Assembly (NCBI GenBank): GCA_017503865.1
Contig: JAFVSI010000038.1
Span: 1-41,878, forward strand
Direction: 5' to 3'
Length of the DNA stretch: 41,878 nucleotides
DNA from: Clostridia bacterium
GTDB taxonomy: Bacteria; Bacillota; Clostridia; Oscillospirales; CAG-272
Numbering within the stretch: position 1 is the stretch's first letter; each line of letters begins with the position of its first letter. The notes beneath the pieces were generated by a model. That model was given only the letters and a program-made list of their open reading frames with translations. It made no database searches and had not been told where the DNA came from. Shown piece by piece: positions 12,301 to 41,878 of the stretch. A program made the position numbers and the translations under genes.

Positions 12301-15300
12301 TTATGCAACAGATTTTTGAATAATTTTTCCGTTTTTTACCTGAAAATTGCACATTTCTGCGAGTTTTGCTTTGTTTTCCTTCGAAATATTCTTCAAGTTG
12401 AGGATATATCTTAACAATCTCTTCTTCGCCAATTGAGACGAGAGATTTCCGACATCGCTGTCGTTTATTGAATACCCCTTTGCACACAACAAGAGCATCT
12501 GCTCCTCGCTCGACAGTCCAAGTGATTTTATTGCAGCAAGCATTTTCTTCTTTTTGGTTCCGCTTATAGTCTTACCGTCTTTGTCCTTGTCGCTTTCAAG
12601 ACCTTTGGTAAGGATATAATACAACGCTAAAATATCAGCACCAAACACGTTGTTTAACAACACCGATTTTCCGCCGTCAATACCAAGAATATCCTCAAAA
12701 GCACTATCATAGTGCAGCTCGTAAACGTATTTTATCGCTTGAACCTTATCTTCTTCGGACAATGTCTTGTATTTTGCGTTAGAGAACAACTTATTCAAAG
12801 ACGCTTGCGAGGATGAGTAGCTTTGACGTAGTGAGTTTTGCTGTTCTGCAGACAACTCTATCTCCTCTCCGTTGTATGTTATCTTGGAAGCAACAGCCTT
12901 CGGCATAACCTTGTAACCCTTCATAAAAAGGTCATAAAGTTCATTATGAACACTCTCACTCATGGTATCACTCATTCGCTCGTTATACAGCATGCCCATA
13001 AGCATTCCAACCATCTCACCATCACCATCTTCCATTGCTTTATAAAGGTCGTTTTGGAAATTTTTCTTATAAAAGGTATTATCAATTTTATATGCTTTCG
13101 TAGGGCTAAAACGCTTTGTTAGTCCATAGAGAACATTAAAAATGTTTCTTACAGGAATTCCATATACCTGGCCGAGAGCATAACTCACTTTTCTAACCTT
13201 CGCTGCAAGTGTTTGATTAGAATCTCCTATTTCCATCAAACCTTTTATACTTGAAAGCAAGTCGTTAATGGCTGAATATGTATAGTTTTCCATCTCATAG
13301 CCGTTAACCATAAAGGAATATGCATCTTTCAAAAGTGGCAATCCACCAAACAAGTTACCAAAAGTATCCGCAAACATCGTTTCAATTACACTCTCATCCT
13401 CTTTTTGATCTTTATCATATAACCATCGGAATGCCTGCGAAATGCTTGCCATAAACACTGCTGTCATAGTGAGTGCCGTTATTGATTTTCTTACCTTTTT
13501 GTTTGCATCTTTAAGTTTTGATTTTAAATCGGCTCTCTCGCTCTCAGTTGTTGCCGCTTTTAACTTAGCCTTAAGCACAGCGGCCTCACCAGTCGAATCA
13601 ACCACTCGTCCGAACACCTTCATTGAGTCCGAGGTAAACATTGTAACAGCTCTCCAAAACTCACTACCTGAGCGCATAGCTTGAGATCTTTCTGTCGCAA
13701 ATGAATTCTGTTGCGTTTCAAGGATAACCTTTCTCAACAATTCTCCTGCCTTAACCTTGTTTTCCTTGGTTCCAATCTTGGGCCCACCATTCTTCTCAAC
13801 CTGCACCTGACAAGCACCAAAGAGTCTTCCGATAACAAGCTTATCTACTGTTCCAATAGGCTTCACAAAAAGATCGCCCACTTTAGAGTCCAAGTTACCT
13901 TGTGCCTTTGCCGCCGCGTTATCGTAATTTCTAAGCATTGCAAGCGAACAGTATTCCTCAACATCGGCAGACGAAAGTGTCATTCCTCTAACAATTGAGT
14001 CATAATCCAAAATACTTGAGGACGCAAATAATGAAGAAAACTGTGTTGCTAAAACCTTTGGGTTTGCTCCAAGCTGATATCTCGCATATCCTGTTCTTAA
14101 AAAAGCAAAGAACTTTGCCCCCTCGCTTGCAATAGCAGGTATTCCCTGAACGTCAGATATAAGCTTGTGAAAATAATCCATTCCATCTTCCCAAACGTTC
14201 TCACTTGCAGTACGTACACTCACTGGTTTGTTAGGATTACCCGATATATCCATATTAAATAGATGATTAAACGCATCAACAACGGGATGAAAGTAAGAAT
14301 ACTGACAAACTGCGTGAGCATGTCGATTATAACAAACATCAGCATCCTCAATAAACAACTGCTGCTTTGCTCCCTTGACCGTATCCTTATTAAACGAAGA
14401 ATTAGTCACTCTGTCTATTTCCCCTTTAACGTCGTTTACATCAATATTTATAGCCTTGTCAGCACGTATTATGGGATAATAATAGCCATCCGTCGCATTT
14501 GTAAAACCAAGCCGCTGCATATCTCGATCAACCTTTAGCTTTCGAAGGTCAACGTTGTATCCCTTTTCAAGAATAGAGATGTATTCTTTGTCAAGGTCAC
14601 TCAATTCCTTCTCAATTATCTCCATTTGTTTCTTGACTTCTGCTTCAAGTTGAGCTTCATTAAGATTAGCTTCAAGGTCAACAAAACCACTTACATCATA
14701 TTTTTCGCCTTTATGGATAAATTTAAAGCCATTGTAGGCGAGTCCTGCGTGTGCGTGTTTTCGTTTCATCGTCATATAAAGCCCGATAAGATGAAGTTTA
14801 TCTATCTTAACGCCTCTATACGTAACCATTTCTTCGGTTGCATTTTTGAGATATTTCTTATTCTTTTTTAGAAAAGCGTCATAATCACGCTTAACTTCAA
14901 CCTCTGCAACGGCAGCTTCTTCGGCAGCGAGACGAATATCTTCGATCATTTCTGTAAAGAATCCGCTTTCATACATATCCATTCGCCTTGCAATACTCAT
15001 AGGGTCACCAAACAATGTACTATACCAGTGACCGAGCTTTCCGCCAAACTTCCTACCGAACAATCCAATATTTATACCCTTATTTGCTTCAATAAGCTTG
15101 ATGTATCTCTCGCACTCGGACATAGCATCAAGCCATTTTCCGTTTCTCCATACCTTGTTATAATTCTCAACAAAGTGTGTAAAATAGGACATAACGTCAA
15201 TAAGCATCTTGAGGTCCTGATTGGTAAAATCTTTTTCTTCCATTGAAAGTGTATCAAGCATCTCGGCTATACTCTTGTTGTAGTATCCAGGGGAAGTCTC

Positions 15301-18300
15301 GTTAATGTACTGCATAATGGTATTGTCTGTCGTGTACCAACTGCGAAGCTCTGCAATTATCTTTCTCGTTCCTGATTTGTTAAGATTTCCTCGAAAATCA
15401 ATTCTTGCAAGTTTCTCAATTGACCCCTTGAATTTATCACTATCGAGCTGTGTTATATTGGAAAAAACGCCGAGTTTAATATCTCTCATTTTCTTTGCCT
15501 TCTCAATAAGAGTATTTATCAGTTCATTTCTTCCTACAAGTTTTTTATACTCGTCCTTCCAATACTTAACGTTGGATTCCCTTGCAGCTTGTTGCAAGAG
15601 TCTTGTTTTTTCTGATGGACGTCCTTCCGACACTATTCGCTTTAATGCCTTCTCAAGCTGTTCTTTAAGGCTCTTTACTTCCTCATCCGTCATTGATGAC
15701 TCGTTAAGCTCGTCAAAGAGCTTGTCTTTCATAACAAGGGTGTATTTCTCGTATCCCTGCTCATCAACTCTTTGGTTATATCCCTGGCAAAGCCTATCGG
15801 CAATAATACCAATCTTCTTTTTTGTAAGTTTGGAAATACCGTCAACCTCGGAAAGTGCTACAAGTATATCCTTTTTGTAGAATACCTTTTCGCCTTGATA
15901 ATTCGCCCTCAGTTGAGCAAGTCTGTTCTTGCTTACTACTGCTTTATTATCATTCGAATCGTTTTTTGTACCATCGATGTCGAGGGAGTAGCGAATGTCG
16001 GGATTCTCGCTATTAAACCTTTCGGAAAGTGGAATAATGTTGCCGTTGTCGTCTCGGGTTATAACATCCGTTTCCTTAAAGTCATAGAAGCCATAAATAC
16101 CGTTGTTGTGATAATATTTACGAGGATTGTCTCGCAAATCCATTATTTCTTCTACGGGATAGTAATATTTAGTTTCTCCGTCTGCTATATCATATTCCGT
16201 TCCCTCTATGAGAGAATCGTGATACTCCTGTGTACCTTTGCGAAGGACTATAGGTTCTCCAAAGCGGACTCTTCCTATGACCTTTCCGTCTTTAGCAATT
16301 CCTACCCACTTGCGAGTTAATGTCTTGGTTTTTCTTACCTCGCCTTTTTTCTTCCCATCTAAAATTGCATTAGCAAAGTCAACAACTCTTCCGTCTTTCT
16401 TATGGGCATCTTTGATGATGATTGCAGTTTCTTGACCATCGGGATTTCCCATTGATGCTATCGAAGCATCGTCCACCATACTTTGTGCCTTAAGTTTTTC
16501 ATTGCGACCTAATGCTTTGAAATAATCTTCGTCGGTAGAGTTTATTAATTGATTTCTTGTTTTCTTTGACCCGTCAACATCACTACCATTTTCAGTATAT
16601 CTTGCTCGGTCACTTCTCTCTTTTGGTCGTATCTCTCGATTATTGCTTCTATTAGTTTCTCCCGATTTTCGTCTATTTCGCAAAGTGTCGATACTGCCAC
16701 TGTTGTTTCTTTGTCCAAGCCGAAACTCTTCAACAGCCCTATCAGGTTGCTTTCTATCTTTGATATCATACTCTTTATTCCTTTCGTTTATATATTGGGT
16801 TTCTTTACGACTAATTGGATGCACTATGCCCGAATCACTTATCCAATATGCAATTGTAACATCATATCCATCTTTGATAAATGTTTTCGTAAGAATTTTG
16901 TTTCTGCGACCTGCACCCCAAGTCAATCCTTCTGATTGTATTTGTGCATATTCATCTTCAAGAAGTTCAATATCATTATACTGCGAAATATCAAAAGAGT
17001 CAATATCCACCGACGCCCTCGCACCATTGGGAAGTTTTGTCTCTCCATCTTTTTTTGTCGAAGGTGTTGACTTTTCGGGAGTTTGTGATATACTATTAGT
17101 GGAAGTTGTCGCGGATTTATCCGTAACCACCGAAAGTACATCGGCGGGGCAACTTCCTTTTTCTATTGCAAAAGAATAAAACCAATGTCCACTATCGTTC
17201 TGCTTAACGTCTATATTCATATAGCACTCAATTTCCGTACCGTTCGCCTCAACGTAAACAAGATTGGTGAGGAAGTAGTGCCACGTTGTAACGCCTGCGT
17301 GTGCGGCATTGTCTTTGCCCGTTTCAATCTTACTTCTTACGTGATGTGATTCTTCAGCAATCTGATAAAGATCGCTGGATAAATTCATTGTAATACGTTT
17401 TTCAGAAGCAGTACCTTTTCTATTGCCAAAGGCAATTTTGGAAAGGTCGCTTCTTTCTGTAAGCTCTGGATTAAATTTTGCCTCAATGGGAATGGTTTTA
17501 CCGTCCACAATTAGTTTTAGTTTGATAGGCTTCTCGCTCCATACATTTTGCACGAGGTCTACAATATCTTTCTGCTTAACGTCTTTGGGCGTATTTTCTG
17601 GATAGTTAGAGCGATATATTCCTCTGCCGTCTTTAGTTCTGCCTATTAAGGAATACCTCTTACTACCTTCAACACCCCCAAGAGCATTATTGCCTCTATT
17701 AGCTGCCGAAAACTCGGCATACATCTTTTGGTAGAGCTTATAGTAGCTCTTTGCCGCCCTTGACAGCCTCTCGTTTTTGTAGTTCGATGCTTCCTTGAAA
17801 AAGGAAAGTATTCTCTTTATAACTGAGGGCTGTTCTGTTGCAAGTGCTTTTGCATAGCCTTTAGTTGCCATTATTTCTGCCGCATAAAAGGCGGTTGTCT
17901 CGTCATCAATAATTGCTTGGTCGGCTCCGTATTCTTTCTCTATCTGTGCTTCCGTGTCCTCGTCTATCTTGTCGAGGGCTTTTTTATATTTGAGCGATAT
18001 ATTGATTCCCTTTTTCTTGTAAAACGCCCTCAATGCGTGGTCAAGCTCGTGAAAGAGTGCCTTTTCTTGCGATATTCTCGCCTCGGGATTTGCAACTATC
18101 CTATTGTTCTTTTCATCGTAATAAGCATTTACAAACTTAGTTTCCTCTTTTACCGAGCCGTCCTTTTGCTTAACTTTGACCTTTGTCTTGCTCAAGCTCT
18201 TATCAAATGCCACGTCAAGTCCTGAGTGTGCCGACATATCCGCCCACATCTTAACGTCAGTCTCGGAGAGACCGTTTGCTCTTGCCTGACGAATGACCTC

Positions 18301-20178
18301 TCGTACCATTAACTTCGCAGACGGAACAAGTCCCGCATAATCCTTTATGTTCTCCCTTGCCCAAGTGTCAAGCTCCTCGACCTCTGCCTTTCTCTTAGCA
18401 TTGGCTTCCTCTCTCTTGGTCTGCTCTGCTTGATACGTCTCTTGTGAGTAGTTGCGAAGGTATTCGTTGACTTCTTCCTTTGTCATCAGCCTTGAACGTA
18501 TATTTGTATCGAAATTGTACAGAATGTAATTATCTCCGTCTCGTGCTATACCCAAGTTACCCTCATTGAAACGAGTTGCATTTCCGCTTTTTAGCCCGAT
18601 AACTCCCTGCTTCACACTTCGTTTGCCCTTTGTTTTCTTGATCTTATCAACGAGCTTTGAATTTCTTACATACTCGTCCAAGCCTCCGTTGTTTTTGTAT
18701 TCGACAAGCTTGTCTGCAAGACCTTCCTTTGTCAGAGCTGTCCAATCCTCAATATTAAGTGCCTTCGACAATGCTTCTATTTCTTCGATAGAGCCTTTTT
18801 CTTTAAGATAAGCGAGGTCAGTCTTACTTAATATATTGCCTCTAAGGACACTGTCTGCCATAGCAGACGTGCTTGACATAGCCTTTCCCGCCAATGCCAT
18901 TGCCGACAACGTGCGAAGGGTATCGTTTGTCTTTATCGCTTCAGCAATACTATTGGGATTGCTTCGGTCAAATCCCTTTGTCAATCCCTCTGCTGTTATA
19001 GTTATGGTATTTCCGTCAAGGTCGGTATATCCGTTACCGTTGAATCTCGCTACAAAACCTTCTGCATCGTTGAGTATATTTGACGCTTCTTTACATAGCA
19101 ATGTAGCCACCTTTGATGTTACGTCTGCTCTCGAAAGGTCACCGAGCATCATTCGCTGATTTGCGGTCTTTACCTCTCCTCCTGTCTTGGCAATACTCTC
19201 GGAAAGTGCTTTATACGATGAGGATACCCTCTCGTAAAACTCCATACCCGTCTTTTGAGACTCCTCAAAGGCAGATACAATTTCTGCACTATTTATTATC
19301 TCTGCTGTTCTTCCCTCATTCACCGCTTTCGTGCCGCTTATAAGGCTTGAGGAAACGTCAACAGTAGCACCGCCGCCACTCATTATAGCACCACTCAATC
19401 CACCGACAAGCGATGCATATAATATCTCTTGTGCCGTTGCGTTCTTGGCATTGGGATCGTATGTGAATTTCTTTATGTAAGGTGTGACAAACTCCGAGAG
19501 ACCTTCCTCAAAAGCTTCTCCAAGAAAACCGTCCACAACAGCCACACCGACTCTTGATGCCATACTCTTAGTAGCACTCTTTCCGAAGTTCTTTATTACA
19601 CTTCCTACACCGCCTAAACCAAGTGCGTTGGTTACGCCCTCTATTCCGCCTTCTACAAGACCAACGCCCGTTCCGTAAAGGTATTCCTTGCCACCGAGCT
19701 GTCCTGTTTGCTCATAGGCTTCCTTTACTCCTCTGCCCGCTGCACCAAGTCCAGCTATAGTTGCCGAAACAAGTCCTACTGCCGCAGGAGCCGCAGCTCC
19801 GCCCGATGCTATTGTTATTCCAATAGCCGCCGCCATAGCGGGCAAGGACGTGCCTATACCGCTCGCAACGTCTCCCGCTATCTTCCATCCGCCTGTAGGC
19901 TGAAACCACTCGTCAGGGTGAGAATACCAATCGCCAAACCAATCGTTTGCTATCTGCTCCTCTGCCCATTCGTCAGCACCGAAGAGCTTAGCTATGCCCG
20001 ATGCGGTATAATCCCATATACCCTCGATTGAAGATACAAAGCCTACCGCTACCTTTTCTCCGAGATAGGCAAGTCCCTCTCCGAAATCCTTTTTCTCCTC
20101 AACGGGAGAAGACAAAGAGGACATTGTAGTCCCCTTTGCCGTTGTGTTTGTTCTATAAAGTTCTGCAAGTGTTGGCAT
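12301..20178 (-). CDS. Giant polyvalent virion protein (2,625 aa)
   Basis: Starts at MPTLAELYRTN after AAGGAGGCAAAT (an upstream in-frame start lacks a site). Residues ~80-290 are Gly/Ala-rich and hydrophobic, as in membrane-inserting ejection proteins. A zincin-like motif HELDH is at ~710-714, with a downstream DDETTAFYAAE supplying a possible third ligand. A 'YSL' linker precedes a folded domain (~850-1010). An ASCH-like region follows (~1265-1365; FANAILDGKKKGEVRKT). A large helical C-terminal half includes a hydrophobic stretch near 2225. This is the layout of large polyvalent proteins injected with phage DNA. It probably enters the host; enzymatic roles are inferred. Confidence 0.75.
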   Translation of the reverse strand: MPTLAELYRTNTTAKGTTMSSLSSPVEEKKDFGEGLAYLGEKVAVGFVSSIEGIWDYTASGIAKLFGADEWAEEQIANDWFGDWYSHPDEWFQPTGGWKIAGDVASGIGTSLPAMAAAIGITIASGGAAAPAAVGLVSATIAGLGAAGRGVKEAYEQTGQLGGKEYLYGTGVGLVEGGIEGVTNALGLGGVGSVIKNFGKSATKSMASRVGVAVVDGFLGEAFEEGLSEFVTPYIKKFTYDPNAKNATAQEILYASLVGGLSGAIMSGGGATVDVSSSLISGTKAVNEGRTAEIINSAEIVSAFEESQKTGMEFYERVSSSYKALSESIAKTGGEVKTANQRMMLGDLSRADVTSKVATLLCKEASNILNDAEGFVARFNGNGYTDLDGNTITITAEGLTKGFDRSNPNSIAEAIKTNDTLRTLSAMALAGKAMSSTSAMADSVLRGNILSKTDLAYLKEKGSIEEIEALSKALNIEDWTALTKEGLADKLVEYKNNGGLDEYVRNSKLVDKIKKTKGKRSVKQGVIGLKSGNATRFNEGNLGIARDGDNYILYNFDTNIRSRLMTKEEVNEYLRNYSQETYQAEQTKREEANAKRKAEVEELDTWARENIKDYAGLVPSAKLMVREVIRQARANGLSETDVKMWADMSAHSGLDVAFDKSLSKTKVKVKQKDGSVKEETKFVNAYYDEKNNRIVANPEARISQEKALFHELDHALRAFYKKKGINISLKYKKALDKIDEDTEAQIEKEYGADQAIIDDETTAFYAAEIMATKGYAKALATEQPSVIKRILSFFKEASNYKNERLSRAAKSYYKLYQKMYAEFSAANRGNNALGGVEGSKRYSLIGRTKDGRGIYRSNYPENTPKDVKQKDIVDLVQNVWSEKPIKLKLIVDGKTIPIEAKFNPELTERSDLSKIAFGNRKGTASEKRITMNLSSDLYQIAEESHHVRSKIETGKDNAAHAGVTTWHYFLTNLVYVEANGTEIECYMNIDVKQNDSGHWFYSFAIEKGSCPADVLSVVTDKSATTSTNSISQTPEKSTPSTKKDGETKLPNGARASVDIDSFDISQYNDIELLEDEYAQIQSEGLTWGAGRRNKILTKTFIKDGYDVTIAYWISDSGIVHPISRKETQYINERNKEYDIKDRKQPDRAVEEFRLGQRNNSGSIDTLRNRRKSGETNRSNNREIRPKERSDRARYTENGSDVDGSKKTRNQLINSTDEDYFKALGRNEKLKAQSMVDDASIASMGNPDGQETAIIIKDAHKKDGRVVDFANAILDGKKKGEVRKTKTLTRKWVGIAKDGKVIGRVRFGEPIVLRKGTQEYHDSLIEGTEYDIADGETKYYYPVEEIMDLRDNPRKYYHNNGIYGFYDFKETDVITRDDNGNIIPLSERFNSENPDIRYSLDIDGTKNDSNDNKAVVSKNRLAQLRANYQGEKVFYKKDILVALSEVDGISKLTKKKIGIIADRLCQGYNQRVDEQGYEKYTLVMKDKLFDELNESSMTDEEVKSLKEQLEKALKRIVSEGRPSEKTRLLQQAARESNVKYWKDEYKKLVGRNELINTLIEKAKKMRDIKLGVFSNITQLDSDKFKGSIEKLARIDFRGNLNKSGTRKIIAELRSWYTTDNTIMQYINETSPGYYNKSIAEMLDTLSMEEKDFTNQDLKMLIDVMSYFTHFVENYNKVWRNGKWLDAMSECERYIKLIEANKGINIGLFGRKFGGKLGHWYSTLFGDPMSIARRMDMYESGFFTEMIEDIRLAAEEAAVAEVEVKRDYDAFLKKNKKYLKNATEEMVTYRGVKIDKLHLIGLYMTMKRKHAHAGLAYNGFKFIHKGEKYDVSGFVDLEANLNEAQLEAEVKKQMEIIEKELSDLDKEYISILEKGYNVDLRKLKVDRDMQRLGFTNATDGYYYPIIRADKAINIDVNDVKGEIDRVTNSSFNKDTVKGAKQQLFIEDADVCYNRHAHAVCQYSYFHPVVDAFNHLFNMDISGNPNKPVSVRTASENVWEDGMDYFHKLISDVQGIPAIASEGAKFFAFLRTGYARYQLGANPKVLATQFSSLFASSSILDYDSIVRGMTLSSADVEEYCSLAMLRNYDNAAAKAQGNLDSKVGDLFVKPIGTVDKLVIGRLFGACQVQVEKNGGPKIGTKENKVKAGELLRKVILETQQNSFATERSQAMRSGSEFWRAVTMFTSDSMKVFGRVVDSTGEAAVLKAKLKAATTESERADLKSKLKDANKKVRKSITALTMTAVFMASISQAFRWLYDKDQKEDESVIETMFADTFGNLFGGLPLLKDAYSFMVNGYEMENYTYSAINDLLSSIKGLMEIGDSNQTLAAKVRKVSYALGQVYGIPVRNIFNVLYGLTKRFSPTKAYKIDNTFYKKNFQNDLYKAMEDGDGEMVGMLMGMLYNERMSDTMSESVHNELYDLFMKGYKVMPKAVASKITYNGEEIELSAEQQNSLRQSYSSSQASLNKLFSNAKYKTLSEEDKVQAIKYVYELHYDSAFEDILGIDGGKSVLLNNVFGADILALYYILTKGLESDKDKDGKTISGTKKKKMLAAIKSLGLSSEEQMLLLCAKGYSINDSDVGNLSSQLAKKRLLRYILNLKNISKENKAKLAEMCNFQVKNGKIIQKSVA

Positions 20179-20192
20179 ATTTGCCTCCTTAT

Positions 20193-22193
20193 TTATTCTT
20201 TTACTGCGCCCCCTGCGAACGTATGTTTCCAAAAACTTTCTTTATATCCTTCAGGATATCTTACATAGTCACTATCTGGCACAAAATCAACCGACATCAA
20301 TTTGTTATTGCCTAAGTATCTATAGTAAGAGGTATCGGTATTAAAGATTCCTCCAAAATTTACGCACACATACTCTCCCTCTTCGATGTCTCCATTTGTG
20401 ACCATTTCGATGATTTTATCCGTGTATTTCGCTTGCTCGGAATCCTTATCTTTGCTTCCCGCAAAATTACCAAACACAGTGGAAGGGCTGTCCTTGGATA
20501 CTTCAACGACCTTGCCTTTACTTACTTCTCCTTGCTCGAAATAGAATCCTTCGGGCAAAATTATTTGCTTGTCTGCCGTGTCTTCGACGGATATCTTCTT
20601 AAACAATCCAGTGTCGAGATATTCGTAGCAGTCACCGCGCCATTGATCATGGCCATAATTAACGTAAACAACGTATCCTTTTTTAATTTCTACCTGCTTT
20701 CCGTCTCCCTGACGGTAACCCTTGATTTTTCCCTCAACCATAGCCTTTATTGATTCAATGAGCTCGGTCTGCTTTTCTCCATCGTCGAAGTTTCCAAACG
20801 AATGTATATTGAAATCATCCGAATAGATGCTTACATATCCTTCCTCGTACCGCATCTTGTACGTTCCTTCGATCTCACGCCAAGTCTCTTCGTCTATAAG
20901 TCCATCCTTACTAAGCATTTGTGCCTTTTTGTATGCAACGCTTGCGGTTACCGCACTCTTTTCCGTCTGCACTCCATTGCTGTCGGTTTCGTAAAGCACA
21001 TCGTTCTTCGCCGCCGCACTTATTGCCTTGATTACGCTACTCTTAGACGCACCAAACGCTCCGTTTTCAATCTCGGTCTTCAACACACCTATTTGTGCGT
21101 CATTGCCGTATATATCGGGCATTGATCTTCCGACAAGGTTTGCGTATTCCGCTTTTCCCGTTTCGGTGTCCAACGAAAGCTTTTGCACCGTTACGCCTTC
21201 TTTTGCCGCCAAGACAAAGTTTCCTTGAGCATAATATTCTGTGCCTTTTTCCTCTGCTTTTTGAACATCAGCATCGGTTATCTTTGCAACACTTCCGTTT
21301 TCCTCCCCTATTTCGTTCAAAGCACCGTAATAAGTCTTGTAAGCCTCTGACCTTGCCTGAGAATAAATCTTGTCAGCCTCTGACCTTGCCTGAAAATAAA
21401 CCTTGTCCGCATCTGCCTTTGCTTGAGAGTAAGCCTTATCTGCATCAAGTCTTGCAATAGCTTCTTGGTAGAGTGCTTGTCTCTTAATGTCGGTTGCTTG
21501 TGCATTAGCACTCTGCCTTGCCGCCATTCCAGCGGCATAAGCTTGGCTGTTAAGGTAATCACTGTACCCGCTTACTTGAAGTCCCATTCTGCCCACTTGC
21601 TCGGCATTCGCACCGTATGTAGCCTTCTGCTGTTCTGCCATTGTAGAGGCATCTACAACACCCCTCTTGCGTTGTATCTCGGCAAGGGCTTCCGCTTCTT
21701 GTCTTTCCTTTAAAGCTTGAGCATACGATGCACCTCGAAGGCTCTCCGCATTGGAATAGGCACTACCAAGATACTGTTCCGCATTGGAGTAGGCTTTATC
21801 ACGATACTGTTCGTCATTGTTAAAGGCTCTATCACGATACTGGTCAAGATAGGCTTTAAGAGATGCATAAGTATCTCCGTTGGTATTAGTATTTGAGGCA
21901 TTATCTCCGTTGGTATTAGTATTTGAGGCATTATCTCCGTTGGTATTAGTATTTGAGGCATTATCTCCATTGGTACCAGGATTTGTGGTATCATCATACC
22001 TCACCCCGTGAAGGATTTGTTTATTGCCAACCTTATTGGTTTTACGATAGGTATTTATTACCTCATATACGTTTTTATTCGGGTCCTCCAATAAGTAATA
22101 TGCGGTTGCCACTGCATCTCCTTCCTCTTTTGTATCAAAATCGAAGTTTATACCTTCTATTGTTTTAGTGTAGACGTCCTTTTTTTCGCTCAT
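20193..22193 (-). CDS. Repeat-rich internal virion protein
   Basis: 666 residues. Residues ~75-107 hold three perfect copies of a ten-residue unit, DNASNTNTNG. Next come Tyr/Ala-rich heptad-like repeats (QYRDKAYSNAEQYLGSAYSN; QARSEADKIYSQARSEA) forming a long helix to ~300. The C-terminal part contains two related modules, each beginning FGNF and ending in a YPEGY/LPEGF motif. The start overlaps the portal stop (ATGA). Between portal and the giant protein, it is probably an internal head or ejection protein; the family is not recognised. Confidence 0.65.
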   Translation of the reverse strand: MSEKKDVYTKTIEGINFDFDTKEEGDAVATAYYLLEDPNKNVYEVINTYRKTNKVGNKQILHGVRYDDTTNPGTNGDNASNTNTNGDNASNTNTNGDNASNTNTNGDTYASLKAYLDQYRDRAFNNDEQYRDKAYSNAEQYLGSAYSNAESLRGASYAQALKERQEAEALAEIQRKRGVVDASTMAEQQKATYGANAEQVGRMGLQVSGYSDYLNSQAYAAGMAARQSANAQATDIKRQALYQEAIARLDADKAYSQAKADADKVYFQARSEADKIYSQARSEAYKTYYGALNEIGEENGSVAKITDADVQKAEEKGTEYYAQGNFVLAAKEGVTVQKLSLDTETGKAEYANLVGRSMPDIYGNDAQIGVLKTEIENGAFGASKSSVIKAISAAAKNDVLYETDSNGVQTEKSAVTASVAYKKAQMLSKDGLIDEETWREIEGTYKMRYEEGYVSIYSDDFNIHSFGNFDDGEKQTELIESIKAMVEGKIKGYRQGDGKQVEIKKGYVVYVNYGHDQWRGDCYEYLDTGLFKKISVEDTADKQIILPEGFYFEQGEVSKGKVVEVSKDSPSTVFGNFAGSKDKDSEQAKYTDKIIEMVTNGDIEEGEYVCVNFGGIFNTDTSYYRYLGNNKLMSVDFVPDSDYVRYPEGYKESFWKHTFAGGAVKE
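21871..21975. repeat. 30-base in-frame tandem repeat within the virion gene
   Basis: About 3.5 copies of a 30-base unit; two consecutive full copies are identical (21901-21930 and 21931-21960), with a near-identical copy before and a partial one after. They encode DNASNTNTNG repeats, so they are coding and not a CRISPR array. Perfect DNA identity suggests recent expansion by slippage or recombination. Confidence 0.85.
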
Positions 22194-29452: not shown

Positions 29453-29790
29453 TCCCTCTCGTTTCTTTCTATTACAAACATAGCATACATAACCGATTGT
29501 TCAATGGCATTCCAAAACCAATCCCCCCATTGATTGCACCATTCCATACCACGTTGATTTTCGTAGTATAAAACCCATTCTTTGACAGTGTGGATTGTGG
29601 AATTGGTAGCCATAACTTCTAAAGCCTCGGAGAAATGCTTGATAGCTCTCATGTGTGTAGATTTCTGCCGCCAATGTTCATGGGTTTCAACCTCGTGCTG
29701 TAACTGACACGCAGCAATTTTCGATAATTCGGTAAATAAAGCTACCGTTTCTATGAGCTCTATATCCAAAATGTCTTTTACAGTGCTCAT
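29449..29790 (-). CDS. Small protein of unknown function
   Basis: 113 residues, helical, Trp-rich near the C-terminus (WVLYYENQRGMEWCNQWGDW). It overlaps both neighbours by four bases (ATGA), between two ImmA-like genes and the HTH. No motif recognised. Confidence 0.6.
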   Translation of the reverse strand: MSTVKDILDIELIETVALFTELSKIAACQLQHEVETHEHWRQKSTHMRAIKHFSEALEVMATNSTIHTVKEWVLYYENQRGMEWCNQWGDWFWNAIEQSVMYAMFVIERNERE

Positions 29791-30209
29791 AACTTTTTTC
29801 CCTCGCTCAAATCGGGTTCGGGTTCTTGTAATAGCATTTTGGCAAACATACTCGCCTCACGCTCTATGGTAATTCCGATAAGCTCGTCAAGGGCTCTGAT
29901 TATTTCTTTCCCCAAAGACGTTGGCTCCCAAAACCTTAATAGATAGTGCCCCACTTCGTGAGCAACAGTAAATCTTTGAAGATAAAGAGGTTGCTTTTCG
30001 TCAAAAATAATTATTGCCTTTCCTTCAGTCGCATCATAAACAATCTTTCCATATTCTTGACTTTTAAGATAGTTATGCTGCGTGGTGTCGATAAGGTGTA
30101 TATCTAATGCCTTAACTATCTTAATCAAGTCAATAGTTCCCTCTCCGTTTATGTCCCTGCACAATCTCACCATTTCTGATATTTCTTTTGTATCTCTTAC
30201 AAGGCTCAT
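29787..30209 (-). CDS. ImmA/IrrE-like metallopeptidase (second of tandem pair)
   Basis: 140 residues from MSLVRDTKEIS, where an upstream in-frame start overlaps the preceding gene and lacks support. The active-site motif HEVGHYLLR, preceded by RFTVA, and a downstream EREASMFAKMLL supply the zinc ligands and fold of ImmA/IrrE proteases, which cleave XRE-type repressors. It lies directly after the first copy (ATGA overlap). The target is unknown; the divergent XRE protein at 30843 is a candidate. Confidence 0.8.
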   Translation of the reverse strand: MSLVRDTKEISEMVRLCRDINGEGTIDLIKIVKALDIHLIDTTQHNYLKSQEYGKIVYDATEGKAIIIFDEKQPLYLQRFTVAHEVGHYLLRFWEPTSLGKEIIRALDELIGITIEREASMFAKMLLQEPEPDLSEGKKL

Positions 30210-30661
30210 TTTTTCACCTCTACACTTTCCAATACATAGGGAGAACACCTACCGAGAAGATACTCAGCGAATAAATCAGCTTCCCTCTCGGTGTTTATAA
30301 ATTTTAGCATTTCTATGCACTCAATTATCCAATTAAGCGTGTCTCGGGTTTCCCAATGCCTTAGCATATAGTGCCCTATCTCGTGTGCCAAAGTAAACTC
30401 TTTTTGCTCTGTTGTACGTGTTTCGTCATAGATAACGAATCCTTGTTTACCATCATAGTGAAACTTTCCATTCTCCGTGTCTTTAAGTTGAAGTTCCGGG
30501 GAATCTTCTAAAGATTCGTTTCGTATTACCTTTAACCCTAAATCTCGGGCGAGCTTGCCGATCTTCATTCTACCGTCCTCGGTAAACTCCATTTTTGCCC
30601 GGCACTCTGCCGCAAGTCTTCTAATCTCTTCATCCTTACGTGATACTTGTAACCATCCCAT
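30206..30661 (-). CDS. ImmA/IrrE-like metallopeptidase (first of tandem pair)
   Basis: 151 residues from MGWLQVSRKDEE, with AAAGGAGGAAGA in front; an in-frame GTG at 30682 lies upstream of that site and inside operator O1. Motif HEIGHYMLR preceded by EFTLA, and EREADLFAEYLL. It is divergent from the XRE gene at 30843 and is first in a long operon that includes the second ImmA, HNH, SSB and replication genes. Likely controlled by the O1-O4 operators. Confidence 0.85.
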   Translation of the reverse strand: MGWLQVSRKDEEIRRLAAECRAKMEFTEDGRMKIGKLARDLGLKVIRNESLEDSPELQLKDTENGKFHYDGKQGFVIYDETRTTEQKEFTLAHEIGHYMLRHWETRDTLNWIIECIEMLKFINTEREADLFAEYLLGRCSPYVLESVEVKK

Positions 30662-30677
30662 TTTTCTTCCTCCTTTT

Positions 30678-30792
30678 TGCACTCGATTTTAGTGCAAATT
30701 TATTATAGCACTAATTTTTAGTGTTGTAAAGAGACAAAATGCACAAACTTTTAGTGCATTTTTTGTTTATTTTTGCACTTGTTTTTAGTGTT
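30678..30792. promoter_or_regulatory. Four 19-bp operators (O1-O4)
   Basis: Four near-palindromic 19-mers share the pattern TGCACT…TTTTAGTGCA: O1 30678-30696, O2 30707-30725, O3 30740-30758, O4 30774-30792. Centres are spaced 29, 33 and 34 bases, about three helical turns. O2 fills the space between the -35 and -10 of the leftward promoter, and O4 covers the -35 of the rightward one. They are the obvious binding sites for the XRE protein at 30843. Confidence 0.85.
30702..30730 (-). promoter_or_regulatory. Leftward promoter of the ImmA/replication operon
   Basis: On the minus strand TTTACA (30725-30730), 17 bases, TATAAT (30702-30707): a near-consensus promoter. Operator O2 lies exactly between the elements and O1 in the initial transcribed region, so repression by the divergent XRE protein should be strong. 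Downstream genes run to 26169. Confidence 0.75.
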
Positions 30793-37193: not shown

Positions 37194-37246
37194 ATTATAT
37201 CTAGATTATCTTGATTTGTCAATTGAATTTCTCTTTTTTCTAGATT
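37194..37246 (-). promoter_or_regulatory. Leftward early promoter with CI-type operators
   Basis: Minus strand TTGACA (37217-37222), 17 bases, TATAAT (37194-37199): full consensus. The spacer holds TCAAGATAATCTAGA (37200-37214), closely matching the site in the 37981-38010 promoter, and a half-site AATCTAGA lies just upstream (37239-37246). This should be the main lytic promoter for the cro-like operon, repressed by the 38031 protein. The gap 37054-37327 contains only such control elements and no supported gene. Confidence 0.75.
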
Positions 37247-37980: not shown

Positions 37981-38010
37981 ATTATAATCTAGAATATCTA
38001 GGAATGTCAA
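37981..38010 (-). promoter_or_regulatory. Promoter of the HEPN-motif gene, with operator
   Basis: Minus strand TTGACA (38005-38010), 18 bases, TATAAT (37981-37986). The spacer contains CTAGATATTCTAG (37989-38001), an imperfect palindrome matching the operator of the leftward early promoter. The plus-strand repressor gene starts at 38031 with AAAGGAAAAATTT, so this operator is shared by both divergent genes. No clean -35 was found for the rightward direction. Confidence 0.7.
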
Positions 38011-38030: not shown

Positions 38031-38468
38031 ATGTTTTACGATATTTTTTTAGCTTTATGTATTCAAAAAAATGTAAAACCCAATAATGTCACAAAAGCAA
38101 TAGGTTTAAGTACAGCTGCGGCTACCGATTGGAAAAATGGTAGCATACCTAGAGATATTACACTAAAAAAACTTGCTAATTACTTCGATGTTCCCGTAGA
38201 ACATTTCAAAGTTCAAACTGATGAGAAAACACAATCAAACATTCAATTTCCTTTCACCGATGAGGAAATTGCCTTAATAATTGCTTATCGGTCTCAACCT
38301 GAAGTTCAAACTGCTGTTAAAAGAATTCTCGGCATCAATTCCGACTATATAGAAATTTATAATGCTGCGAATTCTGAAGAAAACAATCCCCCAAAAACAT
38401 CAAAAATTTTCAAAGGCGAGATAAACAAAATGAAAATCATACCTTTCACAGATCAAGATTTGAAATAA
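38031..38468 (+). CDS. CI-like XRE repressor with shared C-terminal tail
   Basis: 145 residues from MFYDIFLALCIQKN (an in-frame ATG at 38004 lacks a ribosome site). Residues ~5-60 are an XRE HTH (NNVTKAIGLSTAAATDWKNG, ITLKKLANYFDVPVEHF). The C-terminal ~36 residues (AANSEENNPPK … INKMKIIPFTDQDLK) match the end of the next protein with identical spacing. It is the presumed prophage repressor acting at the TCTAGA-type operators. No LexA-type peptidase domain is present; the downstream ImmA-like protein may cleave it. Confidence 0.8.
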   Translation: MFYDIFLALCIQKNVKPNNVTKAIGLSTAAATDWKNGSIPRDITLKKLANYFDVPVEHFKVQTDEKTQSNIQFPFTDEEIALIIAYRSQPEVQTAVKRILGINSDYIEIYNAANSEENNPPKTSKIFKGEINKMKIIPFTDQDLK

Positions 38469-38484
38469 CATATAGAAGGTACTT

Positions 38485-39327
38485 ATGAAAAACACGATAA
38501 AATCCCTTATAGAGTATTATCATACTTCTGTAGAAGATGTAGCAAATAGCATAAATATGCCAGTTGAAAATATTATGGTTTATTATAACAACAAAAATCT
38601 TAAACCATCTATGCACATTGCATTAGCTATTGCACAACACTTTAGCGTTGATGTAAGATTCATTTTTAATATTCCATATATTTGCGAAAAGACGTACGAA
38701 GATCTTCGTGCAGATCTTCAAGTTGATCTGCAAACAGCTGGGGACGCAAAGGAAGCTATGAAGTTTAAGTACCTAAAAGGATACTATCCGGAAGATGTTA
38801 TAACAAACTGCCATAAAAAAGTGTTTATAGCTATGAGTTTCGATTTTAAAAATCAAAAATTGTGTCAAATCCGTGATAATATAAAAAAAGGAATTGAAAA
38901 CACCAGCTATGAACCTATCATTATGAGCGAAGTTCATTCAAACAATTACATAACAGATGATATAATCCGATTTATAAAAGATTCCCAGTTCTTAGTTTTA
39001 GATACAACATTCGAAAATTACGGAGCCTATTATGAAGCGGGCTTTGCGAAAGGATTAGGTAAAGAAGTTATTATTTGTTGTAAAAAATCGGTGTTTGACA
39101 AACGAAAAGACCATTTTGATATAAATCACATTAACCATGTTCTTTGGGAAGATGGGGAAGATCTAATAAAGCAATTATCTGAACGAATTAATCACACCAT
39201 TGTTATTCCTCTTTATGACGCCGCTCTTTCAGAAAATAACAATCCACCTCAAATAAAAGAAGAAACAAAAAGCTTTTTTAATAAAATGAAGAAAGAATCC
39301 TTCTCAGATCAAAACTTGCAAAAATAA
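38485..39327 (+). CDS. XRE–deoxyribosyltransferase-like fusion regulator
   Basis: 280 residues. Residues ~1-60: XRE-type HTH (SVEDVANSINMPVENIMVYY). Residues ~110-235: a nucleoside 2-deoxyribosyltransferase/TIR-like Rossmann-type domain: KKVFIAMSFD, SEVHSNNYITDDII, SQFLVLDTT and GAYYEAGFAKGLGKEV, with Glu184 where such enzymes place their catalytic Glu. The C-terminal tail (AALSENNNPPQ … FNKMKKESFSDQNLQK) is shared with the repressor. This suggests a regulator that senses a nucleotide or an NAD-type signal. Function is inferred; the fusion is visible. Confidence 0.75.
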   Translation: MKNTIKSLIEYYHTSVEDVANSINMPVENIMVYYNNKNLKPSMHIALAIAQHFSVDVRFIFNIPYICEKTYEDLRADLQVDLQTAGDAKEAMKFKYLKGYYPEDVITNCHKKVFIAMSFDFKNQKLCQIRDNIKKGIENTSYEPIIMSEVHSNNYITDDIIRFIKDSQFLVLDTTFENYGAYYEAGFAKGLGKEVIICCKKSVFDKRKDHFDINHINHVLWEDGEDLIKQLSERINHTIVIPLYDAALSENNNPPQIKEETKSFFNKMKKESFSDQNLQK

Positions 39328-39345
39328 AACGAGCACTCAGATTAA

Positions 39346-39924
39346 ATGTACTACGGAATATATAAAGAAATTCGCAATAGTTCATGGAGATGTCTTATAG
39401 ACTTCAAAATTAATCATTTACCCATAGATGTATTAGACATTGCCCTAAAGTCAAAAGTACATGTAATTAGGAACAGTCATGTCAATGTTCTGAAACCAAA
39501 TGAATATGGAAAATCGTATTTTGATGGTGATACTTGGATAATTGTCTACGATGATTTACGAGATATACCCACATGCCGTTTCACCATAGCACACGAACTC
39601 GGACATTTCTTTCTTGGTCATGCACTTGTATATTCAAGATATGCAAATGAAAAGAAACCTTACAAAAAGCATCCTGCAGAAAAACAAGCCGATTCATTCG
39701 CCCTACGTCTTCTCTGCCCTGCGTGTGTTTTGAAGGATTTAAACATTTCCTCTGCCGAGGACATTGCCAAATATTGCAGAGTACCAATCGAATGGGCGGA
39801 GAAAAGATATGTCAGACTAAAAGCACTTAAGGAGCGAGACAAATTCTTCACAGACCCTCTCGAACGAGAAGTTTACGATAATTTCAACAACTATTTAAAA
39901 ACGGTTAAACGAAAAAAGAGGTAA
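39346..39924 (+). CDS. ImmA/IrrE-like metallopeptidase of the lysogeny operon
   Basis: 192 residues. Zinc motif HELGH (83-87) after CRFTIA, with E112 in AEKQADSFALRLL as a likely third ligand. A helical C-terminal part (VPIEWAEKRYVRLKALKERD) follows. It is 18 bases after the fusion regulator and is related to the pair at 29787/30206. In ICEBs1-type elements, ImmA cleaves the ImmR repressor near its C-terminus; here the shared tails of the two upstream regulators are obvious candidate substrates. Confidence 0.85.
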   Translation: MYYGIYKEIRNSSWRCLIDFKINHLPIDVLDIALKSKVHVIRNSHVNVLKPNEYGKSYFDGDTWIIVYDDLRDIPTCRFTIAHELGHFFLGHALVYSRYANEKKPYKKHPAEKQADSFALRLLCPACVLKDLNISSAEDIAKYCRVPIEWAEKRYVRLKALKERDKFFTDPLEREVYDNFNNYLKTVKRKKR

Positions 39925-39928
39925 TATT

Positions 39929-40591
39929 ATGGATACCATTGGAGATATAATCGCTATTGCATTTTTTGCAGCATTTACTTTATTCTTCTTTCTCCCTGTT
40001 ATAAGCGATGGAATAGGAAACAGCCTTAAGGATAGGAAAAAGCTGCGCAAAGAAATTGAAGAAGCCAACAGATATAAAGAAGATCTCAAAAAGAAACAGG
40101 AACAGTTAGCAGATAAAGAAAAGGAATATCAAAATCTTACTGAATTTCATCAGGCGTTTGACCAAGAGAAGTTAGATTTTTATAAGGCTATGGGAATGTT
40201 TGATAGAGAACGTAGCCTTGCGTTAAAGCATCTCAAATCAAATATCAAAGAGCAGTACAATATTGATGCCTTTTTCGAAAGTATTATTCGAGGAAGACTT
40301 TATAATGCAGATCGTACCGATCTTGAAATTATAGACCTTGACGTAAATACAACTATGCGTTCCGGCAATCATTCCTTTGAAGTATCACTTGCAAAATGCG
40401 GCTGTAGTGATTTCCAAAGACATCCGGGCAAACCTTGCAAACATATGCTCTATTTGGCATATTCGTTGGGTATTATGCAGCTCTATCCCGAAATGCACGA
40501 TAAGACTTTGAAGAATATACGAACAATATTAGACGAAAAAGTTAAGGAAAAGAAAAAATTAGAGTCAAATATTAAAGAATTAAGAAAATAA
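39929..40591 (+). CDS. Membrane-anchored coiled-coil protein with SWIM zinc finger
   Basis: 220 residues: an N-terminal membrane segment (IIAIAFFAAFTLFFFLPVIS), a coiled coil (~33-75), a linker helix, and a SWIM zinc finger, C157-G-C159 … C170-K-H172 (CxC…CxH), in ~150-180, then a charged coiled C-terminus. SWIM domains bind DNA or proteins and are uncommon in membrane-anchored prophage proteins. It lies between ImmA and the integrase, so a signalling or exclusion role is possible. Not recognised as a named family. Confidence 0.75.
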   Translation: MDTIGDIIAIAFFAAFTLFFFLPVISDGIGNSLKDRKKLRKEIEEANRYKEDLKKKQEQLADKEKEYQNLTEFHQAFDQEKLDFYKAMGMFDRERSLALKHLKSNIKEQYNIDAFFESIIRGRLYNADRTDLEIIDLDVNTTMRSGNHSFEVSLAKCGCSDFQRHPGKPCKHMLYLAYSLGIMQLYPEMHDKTLKNIRTILDEKVKEKKKLESNIKELRK

Positions 40592-40642: not shown

Positions 40643-41731
40643 ATGCGATTACCAAACGGATACGGTGGTATAACCAAGCTATCAGGCAACAGGCGAAATC
40701 CTTGGCGTGTAAGAGTGACTGTAGGCTGGACAATTGATGAAAAAACTCAAAAAACCAAACAGCAATATGCTACTATTGGATATTATCCAACAAAGCAGAA
40801 GGCTCTACAAGCTCTTGCCGATTACAATGCCAACCCATATAACTTGGAAACAAATAACATAACGTTTGCCGAAGTTTATGAAAAATGGTCTGAAAAGAAA
40901 TTTGAAGAAATAAGTGCCTCAAATATACAAGGATATAAGGCTGCCTACAAGCTTTGTCACCCACTATACAAAACAAAGTTTGTGGACCTTAAACTTGTTC
41001 ACTTGCAGCACGTTGTTGATACTTCTAAAAAAGCTTATCCAACACTAAAAAAACTCAAAATTCTCTTCAACCAATTATTCGACTATGCCGTTATGCATGA
41101 GATAATTTCCAAGGATAAGAATGTTGTTGAGTTCCTCAATATAGGAAAAGAAGAAAAAAGCACTAAGCATTATCGTTTTACCGAATACGAAGTTAATACT
41201 TTATGGCAATGGGCTCCAAACAACGACTATGTGCAGGTCATTCTTATGCTTATATATTCAGGGGTTCGCCCTGGTGAGCTTTTCAACCTAAAAGCCGCAG
41301 ATGTTGATCTCGAGAATCATTTCTTTACGATTCAAAAAGGAAAAAACGTAAATGCAGCGAGAAAAGTTCCAATTCACGACAGGACTCTACCATTTTTTAA
41401 AAATTGGCTAAGCAAGAACAATGAATATCTCATTACTAATTTAAGCGGCAGAAAATTTCAATTTGACACCAATCACGGCTCATACACCGACAGCTTCTTT
41501 ATACCATTACTTGCCGATATGGGTATATTAGAATATACGAATGATAACGGCGAAATAAAAAAACATCTCCCCGACGACACAAGACACACCTTTACAACTA
41601 TGTGGCGTGAAAAACGTCTCGATGAAGCTATGCGGAGAAAAATACAAGGGCATAGTGGCAAAGGCATTGGAGAGATTGTTTATACTCACTTTGAACTAAC
41701 AAAATTATATGAAGAGCTGAACAAGCTCTAA
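40643..41731 (+). CDS. int: Tyrosine-family phage integrase
   Basis: 362 residues. An N-terminal arm-binding domain (GYYPTKQKALQALADYN), a SAM-like core-binding domain (~70-160), and a C-terminal catalytic domain with R209 (GVRPGEL), K241 (AARKVPI), R314 in DDTRHTFTTM, H337 (GHSGKG) and Y347 (VYTHF). The usual His three residues before R314 is Asp311 here. It integrates and excises the prophage at the rpsI-type core located 128 bases downstream. AAAGGAGGATAATT precedes ATG. Confidence 0.95.
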   Translation: MRLPNGYGGITKLSGNRRNPWRVRVTVGWTIDEKTQKTKQQYATIGYYPTKQKALQALADYNANPYNLETNNITFAEVYEKWSEKKFEEISASNIQGYKAAYKLCHPLYKTKFVDLKLVHLQHVVDTSKKAYPTLKKLKILFNQLFDYAVMHEIISKDKNVVEFLNIGKEEKSTKHYRFTEYEVNTLWQWAPNNDYVQVILMLIYSGVRPGELFNLKAADVDLENHFFTIQKGKNVNAARKVPIHDRTLPFFKNWLSKNNEYLITNLSGRKFQFDTNHGSYTDSFFIPLLADMGILEYTNDNGEIKKHLPDDTRHTFTTMWREKRLDEAMRRKIQGHSGKGIGEIVYTHFELTKLYEELNKL

Positions 41732-41810
41732 TTATTTTGTGTTTTACGTGTGACTTGTGTGTGTATTACAGTCCCGAAATTGCACAAATTTAGACGAAAT
41801 AAATAAAAAG

Positions 41811-41845
41811 AAAAACCCCAAAAACAAAGTGTTTTCGAGGTTTTT
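41811..41845. terminator. Bidirectional terminator between int and rpsI end
   Basis: AAAAACC … AAAAC / GTTTT … GGTTTTT form a stem with an internal bulge. T-rich sequence follows on both strands (TTTTT on plus, TTTTTCTTTTT on minus). On plus it ends integrase transcription; on minus it would terminate the inferred rpsI transcript entering from the right, replacing the host terminator displaced by insertion. Confidence 0.7.
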
Positions 41846-41859
41846 CATATCGAAGGTGA

Positions 41860-41878
41860 TTATCTCTTCGAGAACTGA
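41860..41878. repeat. Attachment core, right copy (inferred end of host rpsI)
   Basis: Exact copy of bases 1-19, lying 128 bases after the integrase stop. The integrase-proximal position and the S9 C-terminal codons (QFSKR-stop on the minus strand) fit site-specific insertion into the 3' end of rpsI. The rest of rpsI would lie beyond the right edge and be read into the window. Because the core contains the last five codons and the stop, insertion would leave S9 unchanged. The flanking host gene is not visible, so this is inference from the core alone. Confidence 0.8.

Follow-up and report, generated by a model that had tools for sequence, protein, structure and literature searches.

The right end of the window (the whole stretch of 41,878 nucleotides analyzed here) is the lysogeny module of a prophage in a Clostridia-type host, and we predict that it works as a switch of the ImmR/ImmA type in which a single protease has two tagged regulators, one being a DNPH1-fold fusion. 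These regulators, A and B, share a C-terminal tail, and since in dozens of related elements this tail marks the repressor beside the same kind of protease, one protease probably switches off both. The protease-linked tag module is a more general finding than the A-B pair itself. To our knowledge, substrate choice by ImmA/IrrE-type proteases is understood in just a few pairs; a ~40-residue tail that tracks the protease, unlike the DNA-binding part, would predict clients from sequence, name the cut site and suggest a portable tag.

Genes and promoters of the lysogeny module

The module runs on the plus strand in the order A, B, M78 protease, SWIM-like protein and tyrosine integrase, with A, B and the protease sitting where the initial annotation had placed them. 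The features discussed below are as follows.

37194..37222, minus strand: the other perfect promoter, TTGACA-17-TATAAT, directed at the XRE gene 37053-36844
37201-37213: candidate second operator CTAGATTATCTTG, in the spacer of the second promoter
37981..38010, minus strand: sigma-70 promoter with perfect consensus, TTGACA-18-TATAAT, pointing away from A
37989-38001: candidate operator palindrome CTAGAATATCTAG, in the spacer of the divergent promoter
38031..38468, plus strand: regulator A, XRE-type repressor with C-terminal tail, 145 aa; HTH_3 E 4.9e-5; phrog_8
38349..38465, plus strand: tail of A, residues 107-145; Ala-Ala core at 38364-38369
38485..39327, plus strand: regulator B, 280 aa; weak XRE-type HTH, linker, DNPH1/NDT-fold domain, tail
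38806..39204, plus strand: DNPH1/nucleoside 2-deoxyribosyltransferase fold domain of B, residues 108-240; conserved Glu184 in GAYYEAG
39205..39324, plus strand: tail of B, residues 241-280; Ala-Ala core at 39220-39225
39346..39924, plus strand: ImmA/IrrE-type (M78) metallopeptidase, 192 aa; PHROG_1914; CapP-like (capP 1.1e-15); HELGH at residues 83-87
39929..40591, plus strand: SWIM-like protein; Pfam SWIM E 0.001, just below the family cut-off
40643..41731, plus strand: tyrosine integrase, closing the lysogeny module

The listed reading frame of A opens at an upstream ATG at 38004, and the AAGGAAAAATTT-ATG context favors 38031, giving the 145-aa product. A passes as an XRE-type HTH protein, its HTH_3 match lying above the gathering threshold, and its N-terminal domain resembles the HTH of CapH, SinR, DdrO and ImmR in a fold search where many HTHs tie and which covered only residues ~1-82, the tail lying outside the range compared with solved structures. 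The HTH of B (residues ~3-61) is weak, scoring 22.7 bits with a local HTH model and lacking a Pfam HTH match, and the linker that follows it is modelled at low confidence; because of this weak HTH and the DNPH1-like main domain, the status of B as a repressor is unproven. With the tails removed, the two bodies align with a score of 37, a value reached by 83 of 1000 shuffles, so that no relationship between A and B is detectable outside the tail; the two regulators thus have different bodies, as had been noted at the start, and the idea that A is a truncated B, or the reverse, was ruled out. Searches with whole B retrieved no relatives in viral contigs or phages; those with whole A gave no confirmed relative in viral contigs and 10 matching phage records, none of which matches as far as the tail. 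The gene downstream of A and B, annotated early on as an ImmA/IrrE-type metallopeptidase, is indeed one (Peptidase_M78, Pfam E 1.2e-11), and its H83, E84, H87 and E112 are invariant in an 11-row alignment. Those relatives of the protease locus that bear names come mostly from gut Oscillospiraceae/Clostridia genomes, and in one of the related loci (L059) the protease is followed by an ORF with a C/H cluster which, by eye, is similar to that of the SWIM-like gene.

The main domain of B belongs to the DNPH1/nucleoside deoxyribosyltransferase superfamily as judged by fold, sequence family and a conserved glutamate. Its predicted structure has this fold; the Nuc_deoxyrib_tr family was found in 9 of 10 family members, being absent from B's own slice (E 0.05 for whole B); and a glutamate that lines up with Rcl is invariant across all 10 aligned domain rows. 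We take this residue to be catalytic. Among 18 inspected relatives of the domain, 16 end where the tail of B starts and two extend 10-20 residues further. None of the relatives searched (L003-L005 and L171-L178 read directly, L201-L212 searched by models) carries the tail, and an XRE domain was met in L211 only, as a weak match in a different protein; the domain also occurs in 21 plasmid records outside this set. Compared with DNPH1 (Rcl) and the nucleoside 2-deoxyribosyltransferases, B stands apart in that its putative-enzyme domain is fused to an HTH and a protease tail, and the matches listed from the open-licence literature included no description of a tailed regulator with a DNPH1-like domain beside an ImmA-type protease.

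Both perfect promoters hold a CTAGAnnnTCTAG-like palindrome between their hexamers, and the two sites form a 25-nt repeat of 80% identity. Across the window, CTAGANNNTCTAG occurs exactly only once, as CTAGAATATCTAG, and allowing one mismatch adds CTAGATTATCTTG alone; with two mismatches allowed, the 10 matches (17.4 expected) are no commoner than chance. Promoter-like sites overall are not enriched, with 17 found vs. 20.8 expected. We surmise that the spacer palindromes are likely candidate operators for the repressor.

The tail and its association with the protease

Local alignment of A and B yields a single gapless 39-residue block at the C-termini with a score of 89, reached by none of 2000 shuffles (mean 33.8, sd 5.5, maximum 61). 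The tail spacing first proposed held up, AA-x-SE-x-NNPP being followed by 10 residues, NKMK, 3 residues and F-[TS]-DQ-x-L; the exception is the last lysine, which is out of register (A ends in DLK, B in NLQK). When the 255 ORFs of the window were searched with a held-out tail model, built from 50 tails of which none came from the window, two passed, A at 1e-10 and B at 4e-5, the next ORF having an E of 0.2; B scored 17.4 bits vs. 35.2 for A, its match spanning model positions 9-37 only, and its tail reads 'ES' in place of the common 'AP'. Together, the shuffles and the held-out matches rule out chance similarity. With B as a query against the whole genome, the search picked up A's tail by itself (E 5.6e-4), and among the tails compared, those of A and B are each other's nearest. 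The block has 19 identical positions, of which 11 use the same codon, and a DNA identity of 72/117, so there was no recent DNA copy; recent duplication or conversion of the tail is accordingly unlikely.

The shared element is therefore real, but it is no local oddity: it characterizes the repressors that go with this protease family. Its general pattern is approximately [IV]-[YF]-x-AA-x-S-x-[DE]-[NG] ... K ... L-x-x-AP-x-TD-x-x-[LF], with AA-x-S as the best-conserved part; the NKMK and DQ segments singled out initially, like NNPP and [TS]DQ, are local spellings, the corresponding stretches elsewhere reading approximately 'KLKNAP' and 'TD[DE]xL'. In the host's family, relatives of the protease were found in 17 of 146 genomes, and the XRE genes upstream of them show the tail pattern in their last 45 residues in L023 and L007-L011; the pattern also adjoins the protease in L036 and L038-L040, and no upstream ORF with it was found at L012-L017 and L024, which have more distant proteases. 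A wider protease scan covered 114 loci (the best 80 of 123 genome loci, 32 virus loci and 2 phage records), comprising 60 with a close protease (at least 190 bits), 50 with a protease of 100-190 bits, and four below 100 bits (L167-L170) that were excluded from both classes. At the close-protease loci, the first tail model matched 54 of 60 (E<0.05) and an iterated model found the tail at the C-terminus of an ORF lying upstream on the same strand in 56 of 60, counts that are not independent because the models drew on those loci (10 of the 13 first-model rows come from among the 60, and the iterated model was trained on the same loci). These loci contain 100 XRE-like ORFs, of which 56 are tailed, one per locus. 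As for the four without a match, L074 has a protease frame broken near its start and no adjoining repressor, while the upstream XRE genes of L079 and L099 end differently; in L150, a 95-aa ORF before the protease has a tail-like end and a ribbon-helix-helix look and was left uncounted, as it belongs to no Pfam family and matches no tail model.

Starting from the tail instead of the protease, a search through 395 genomes of the same family, among them that of the window, found tails in 15, with 17 carriers at 16 loci. The protease is present at all 16, as the next gene in 15 and ~2.5 kb off in one; tails kept where the protease is lost were thus not seen, the outcome named at the start as one that would count against a shared protease element being such a loss in relatives that keep both tails. 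No relative with both the A and the B tail was found among the same-family genomes and the 60 close loci, and within the 16 same-family tail loci and those 60, two carriers in one locus occur in the window only. An order-wide search of 394 genomes retrieved tails in the window's genome, G093 and G572 (with the protease); a match in G059 (E 0.0033, later 5.4e-4) lies inside an unrelated 375-aa ORF and was dropped as chance. One XRE-S24 (LexA/CI-type) repressor (L100:2930-3778) also ends in the tail and possibly has two inactivation routes, self-cleavage and the M78 protease. In three loci of one genus (L010, L038 and L040), the tailed repressor-protease pair lies, by eye, beside a SecG-like gene, and because of this neighbor the pair may be resident rather than prophage-borne. 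Among the matches listed for literature on an ImmA recognition motif, a degron or two repressors, no description of the tail was found.

The distance between tails also rises with that between proteases (rank correlation 0.32, with 0 of 2000 permutations as high), vs. a correlation of 0.017 between protease and HTH distances, reached in 766 of 2000 permutations; the bootstrap interval of the difference is 0.18-0.44. These values come from 53 loci whose proteases all differ, a set that includes the window and L023 and still contains some near-copies. On these correlations, tail distance tracks the protease and not the DNA-binding domain. Since adjacent genes travel together, linkage could contribute to both pairing and co-variation, but that it is the whole cause is made less likely by 8 of the 60 close loci (four being near-copies), which keep the tail across 1.7-2.6 kb of intervening genes. 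In L067, L080, L084, L086 and L088, the tailed repressor is separated from the protease by a slot of varying content, which holds an SF1 helicase in L067, an HSDR_N protein together with an ion channel in L080, a HIRAN protein that probably has a membrane segment in L084 and, among the slot loci, lipoprotein-like ORFs. B occupies the same slot. Genes of pneumococcal prophage lysogeny modules, with a HIRAN protein among them, are described in PMC12637031.

Proteases of the distant class (L101-L138 and L155-L166) have a different arrangement: in 45 of 50, an XRE gene lies within 2.5 kb and converges on the protease, often overlapping it at the 3' ends. Near the C-terminus of 32 of these 45 convergent XRE genes is an [AG]-R-[DNGS]-G core (e.g. 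VKIAGRDG), and after such ends, of the IA[AG]RDG type, there is often a segment resembling a helix and then an acidic terminus. By eye, this C-terminus resembles another version of the tail module; the tail model itself (E<1e-3) matches two distant-locus repressors, L102 and L155.

Possible roles of the tail

The models of A (mean pLDDT 85.6, 42 sequences) and B (72.5, 19 rows) predict a similar tail, with strands 106-111 and 122-127 and helix 128-135 in A, and strands 240-245 and 256-261 and helix 262-270 in B; the two are not independent, because the alignment for B held tail rows of other proteins, A's included. In both, the Ala-Ala core lies at or just past the end of the first tail strand. 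Block-mean pLDDT of the A tail is 73-86 over most of its length and 53 at the end.

We postulate that the tail is a small transplantable strand-strand-helix module by which an ImmA-type protease would recognize and cut its client regulators, and, with reasonable confidence, that it serves the neighboring protease in this way with both A and B as clients. A would then be the lysogeny repressor, and B, which joins an HTH to a DNPH1-like nucleotide domain and has the same tail module, would be the other client. Once activated (in studied relatives by DNA damage or ssDNA), the protease would take hold of the first strand of the tail and cleave close to the Ala-Ala core, the predicted sites being A113|N114 (A) and A247|L248 (B); both regulators would probably be inactivated together in this way, opening the two perfect leftward promoters. 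The predicted strand binding and Ala-Ala cut draw on analogy with the substrates of MpaR, ImmA and PprI. The Listeria DUF955 protease MpaR acts on two CI-like repressors sharing a segment, and its cut, mapped in the phi10403S repressor, falls between Ala and His (TIAA|HID) (PMC6872733); in a model of DdrO on PprI, the cleavage loop forms an antiparallel strand, and ssDNA activates both PprI and CapP (PMC10904395). The exact cut is uncertain because 6 of 52 aligned tails lack a strict AA. By eye, the tail is like TIAAHIDxxxxEExxxxILAYIE in its AA core and downstream helix; the MpaR site stays an analogy, because the repressor of A118, a phage related to the MpaR-controlled one, matched neither tail model when taken as a stand-in for MpaR substrates, its sequence having AA and then a helix-like C-terminus.

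The earlier proposal of a recognition or cleavage element for an ImmA-type protease has thus gained strong comparative support from pairing, retention past cargo, co-variation and unlike bodies, while the release of two circuits at once that came with it is something we infer. These same observations bear on other roles for the tail. It might be an oligomerization or stability domain that co-travels with the protease as the adjoining gene end, the protease contacting its substrate elsewhere, with recombination inside the repressor gene swapping the HTH and leaving tail and protease as a block. The ordered strand-strand-helix predicted for the A tail would suit such a domain, as would the need of DdrO for its C-terminal domain to form dimers (PMC10904395) and the similar role suggested for ImmR by analogy with SinR (PMC8960796). 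We nevertheless regard this as unlikely, given the persistence of the tail past the intervening genes, its presence on unlike bodies, and the recurrence of a C-terminal core in the convergent XRE genes of the distant class. A pairing of A with B through their tails, in which mixed oligomers would let the nucleotide domain of B tune the repressor while the protease cuts A only, would fit the common tail spelling, the mutually nearest tails and the adjacency of the genes on one strand; but the other examined tail loci have a single carrier, so carrier-carrier pairing is not the tail's general role, and we consider this account of A and B improbable. Even less credible, in our judgment, is a degron for a host protease (ClpXP or Lon), with the M78 protein acting on something else: the tail is short, sits at the C-terminus and stops close to a conserved acidic/hydrophobic end, and in prophages of S. 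aureus, ClpX is reported to be indispensable for CI repressor inactivation (PMC10584840), but the tight pairing and co-variation with one protease family argue against it.

The tail as a protease recognition module places this locus close to known systems. It is like Listeria MpaR (monocin and phi10403S repressors) in that one DUF955/M78 protease would serve more than one repressor by a short common segment, here the tail shared by A and B, which we infer the protease recognizes; the clients of MpaR, however, lie in different elements and are all CI-like, whereas here both candidate clients are in one operon and one has a DNPH1-like domain. The resemblance to ImmR/ImmA of ICEBs1, an XRE repressor and M78 protease of a mobile element with a C-terminal cut at F95|M96 of 127 residues (PMC8960796), lies in the XRE-type HTH of A and an adjacent M78 protein with HEXXH; unlike ICEBs1, there are two candidate clients, and the tail is predicted as strand-strand-helix whereas the C-terminal region of ImmR is predicted as two helices (PMC8960796). 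In contrast to CapH/CapP (CBASS) and DdrO/PprI (IrrE), the setting is a prophage lysogeny module outside a CBASS or Deinococcus context.

More tentatively, and with some doubt, we raise the possibility that prophages graft the tag as a portable unit onto unlike proteins, in this case onto a DNPH1-like sensor or hydrolase in the cargo slot, thereby wiring lytic release to its removal or activation. If so, the element would read DNA damage via the protease and nucleotide pools via B in one proteolytic step, and B would be a nucleotide-acting regulator or defence effector, removed or activated by clipping. A tagged DNPH1-like regulator would connect nucleotide chemistry with prophage induction.

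Other features of the window

The window holds three M78 proteins in all. Two are short and lie in tandem on the minus strand (29787-30248 and 30206-30682; Pfam 8e-7 and 2e-7), each with HExGH, and are possible extra antirepressors. The 2643-residue ORF at 12301-20232 (minus strand) has no Pfam match at E<=0.001. Contig G000:C90, which is 33,531 bases long, repeats window 28.5-32.5 kb in reverse at 100% identity, and mirrored minor matches, with one change of offset of ~30 bases, suggest that the parallel extends further into the left part of the window; the contig is perhaps a variant or redundant assembly path. The window's final 141 bases (41738-41878), right after the integrase, are identical to G000:C41:37528-37668 and are either an attachment-site repeat or an assembler overlap.
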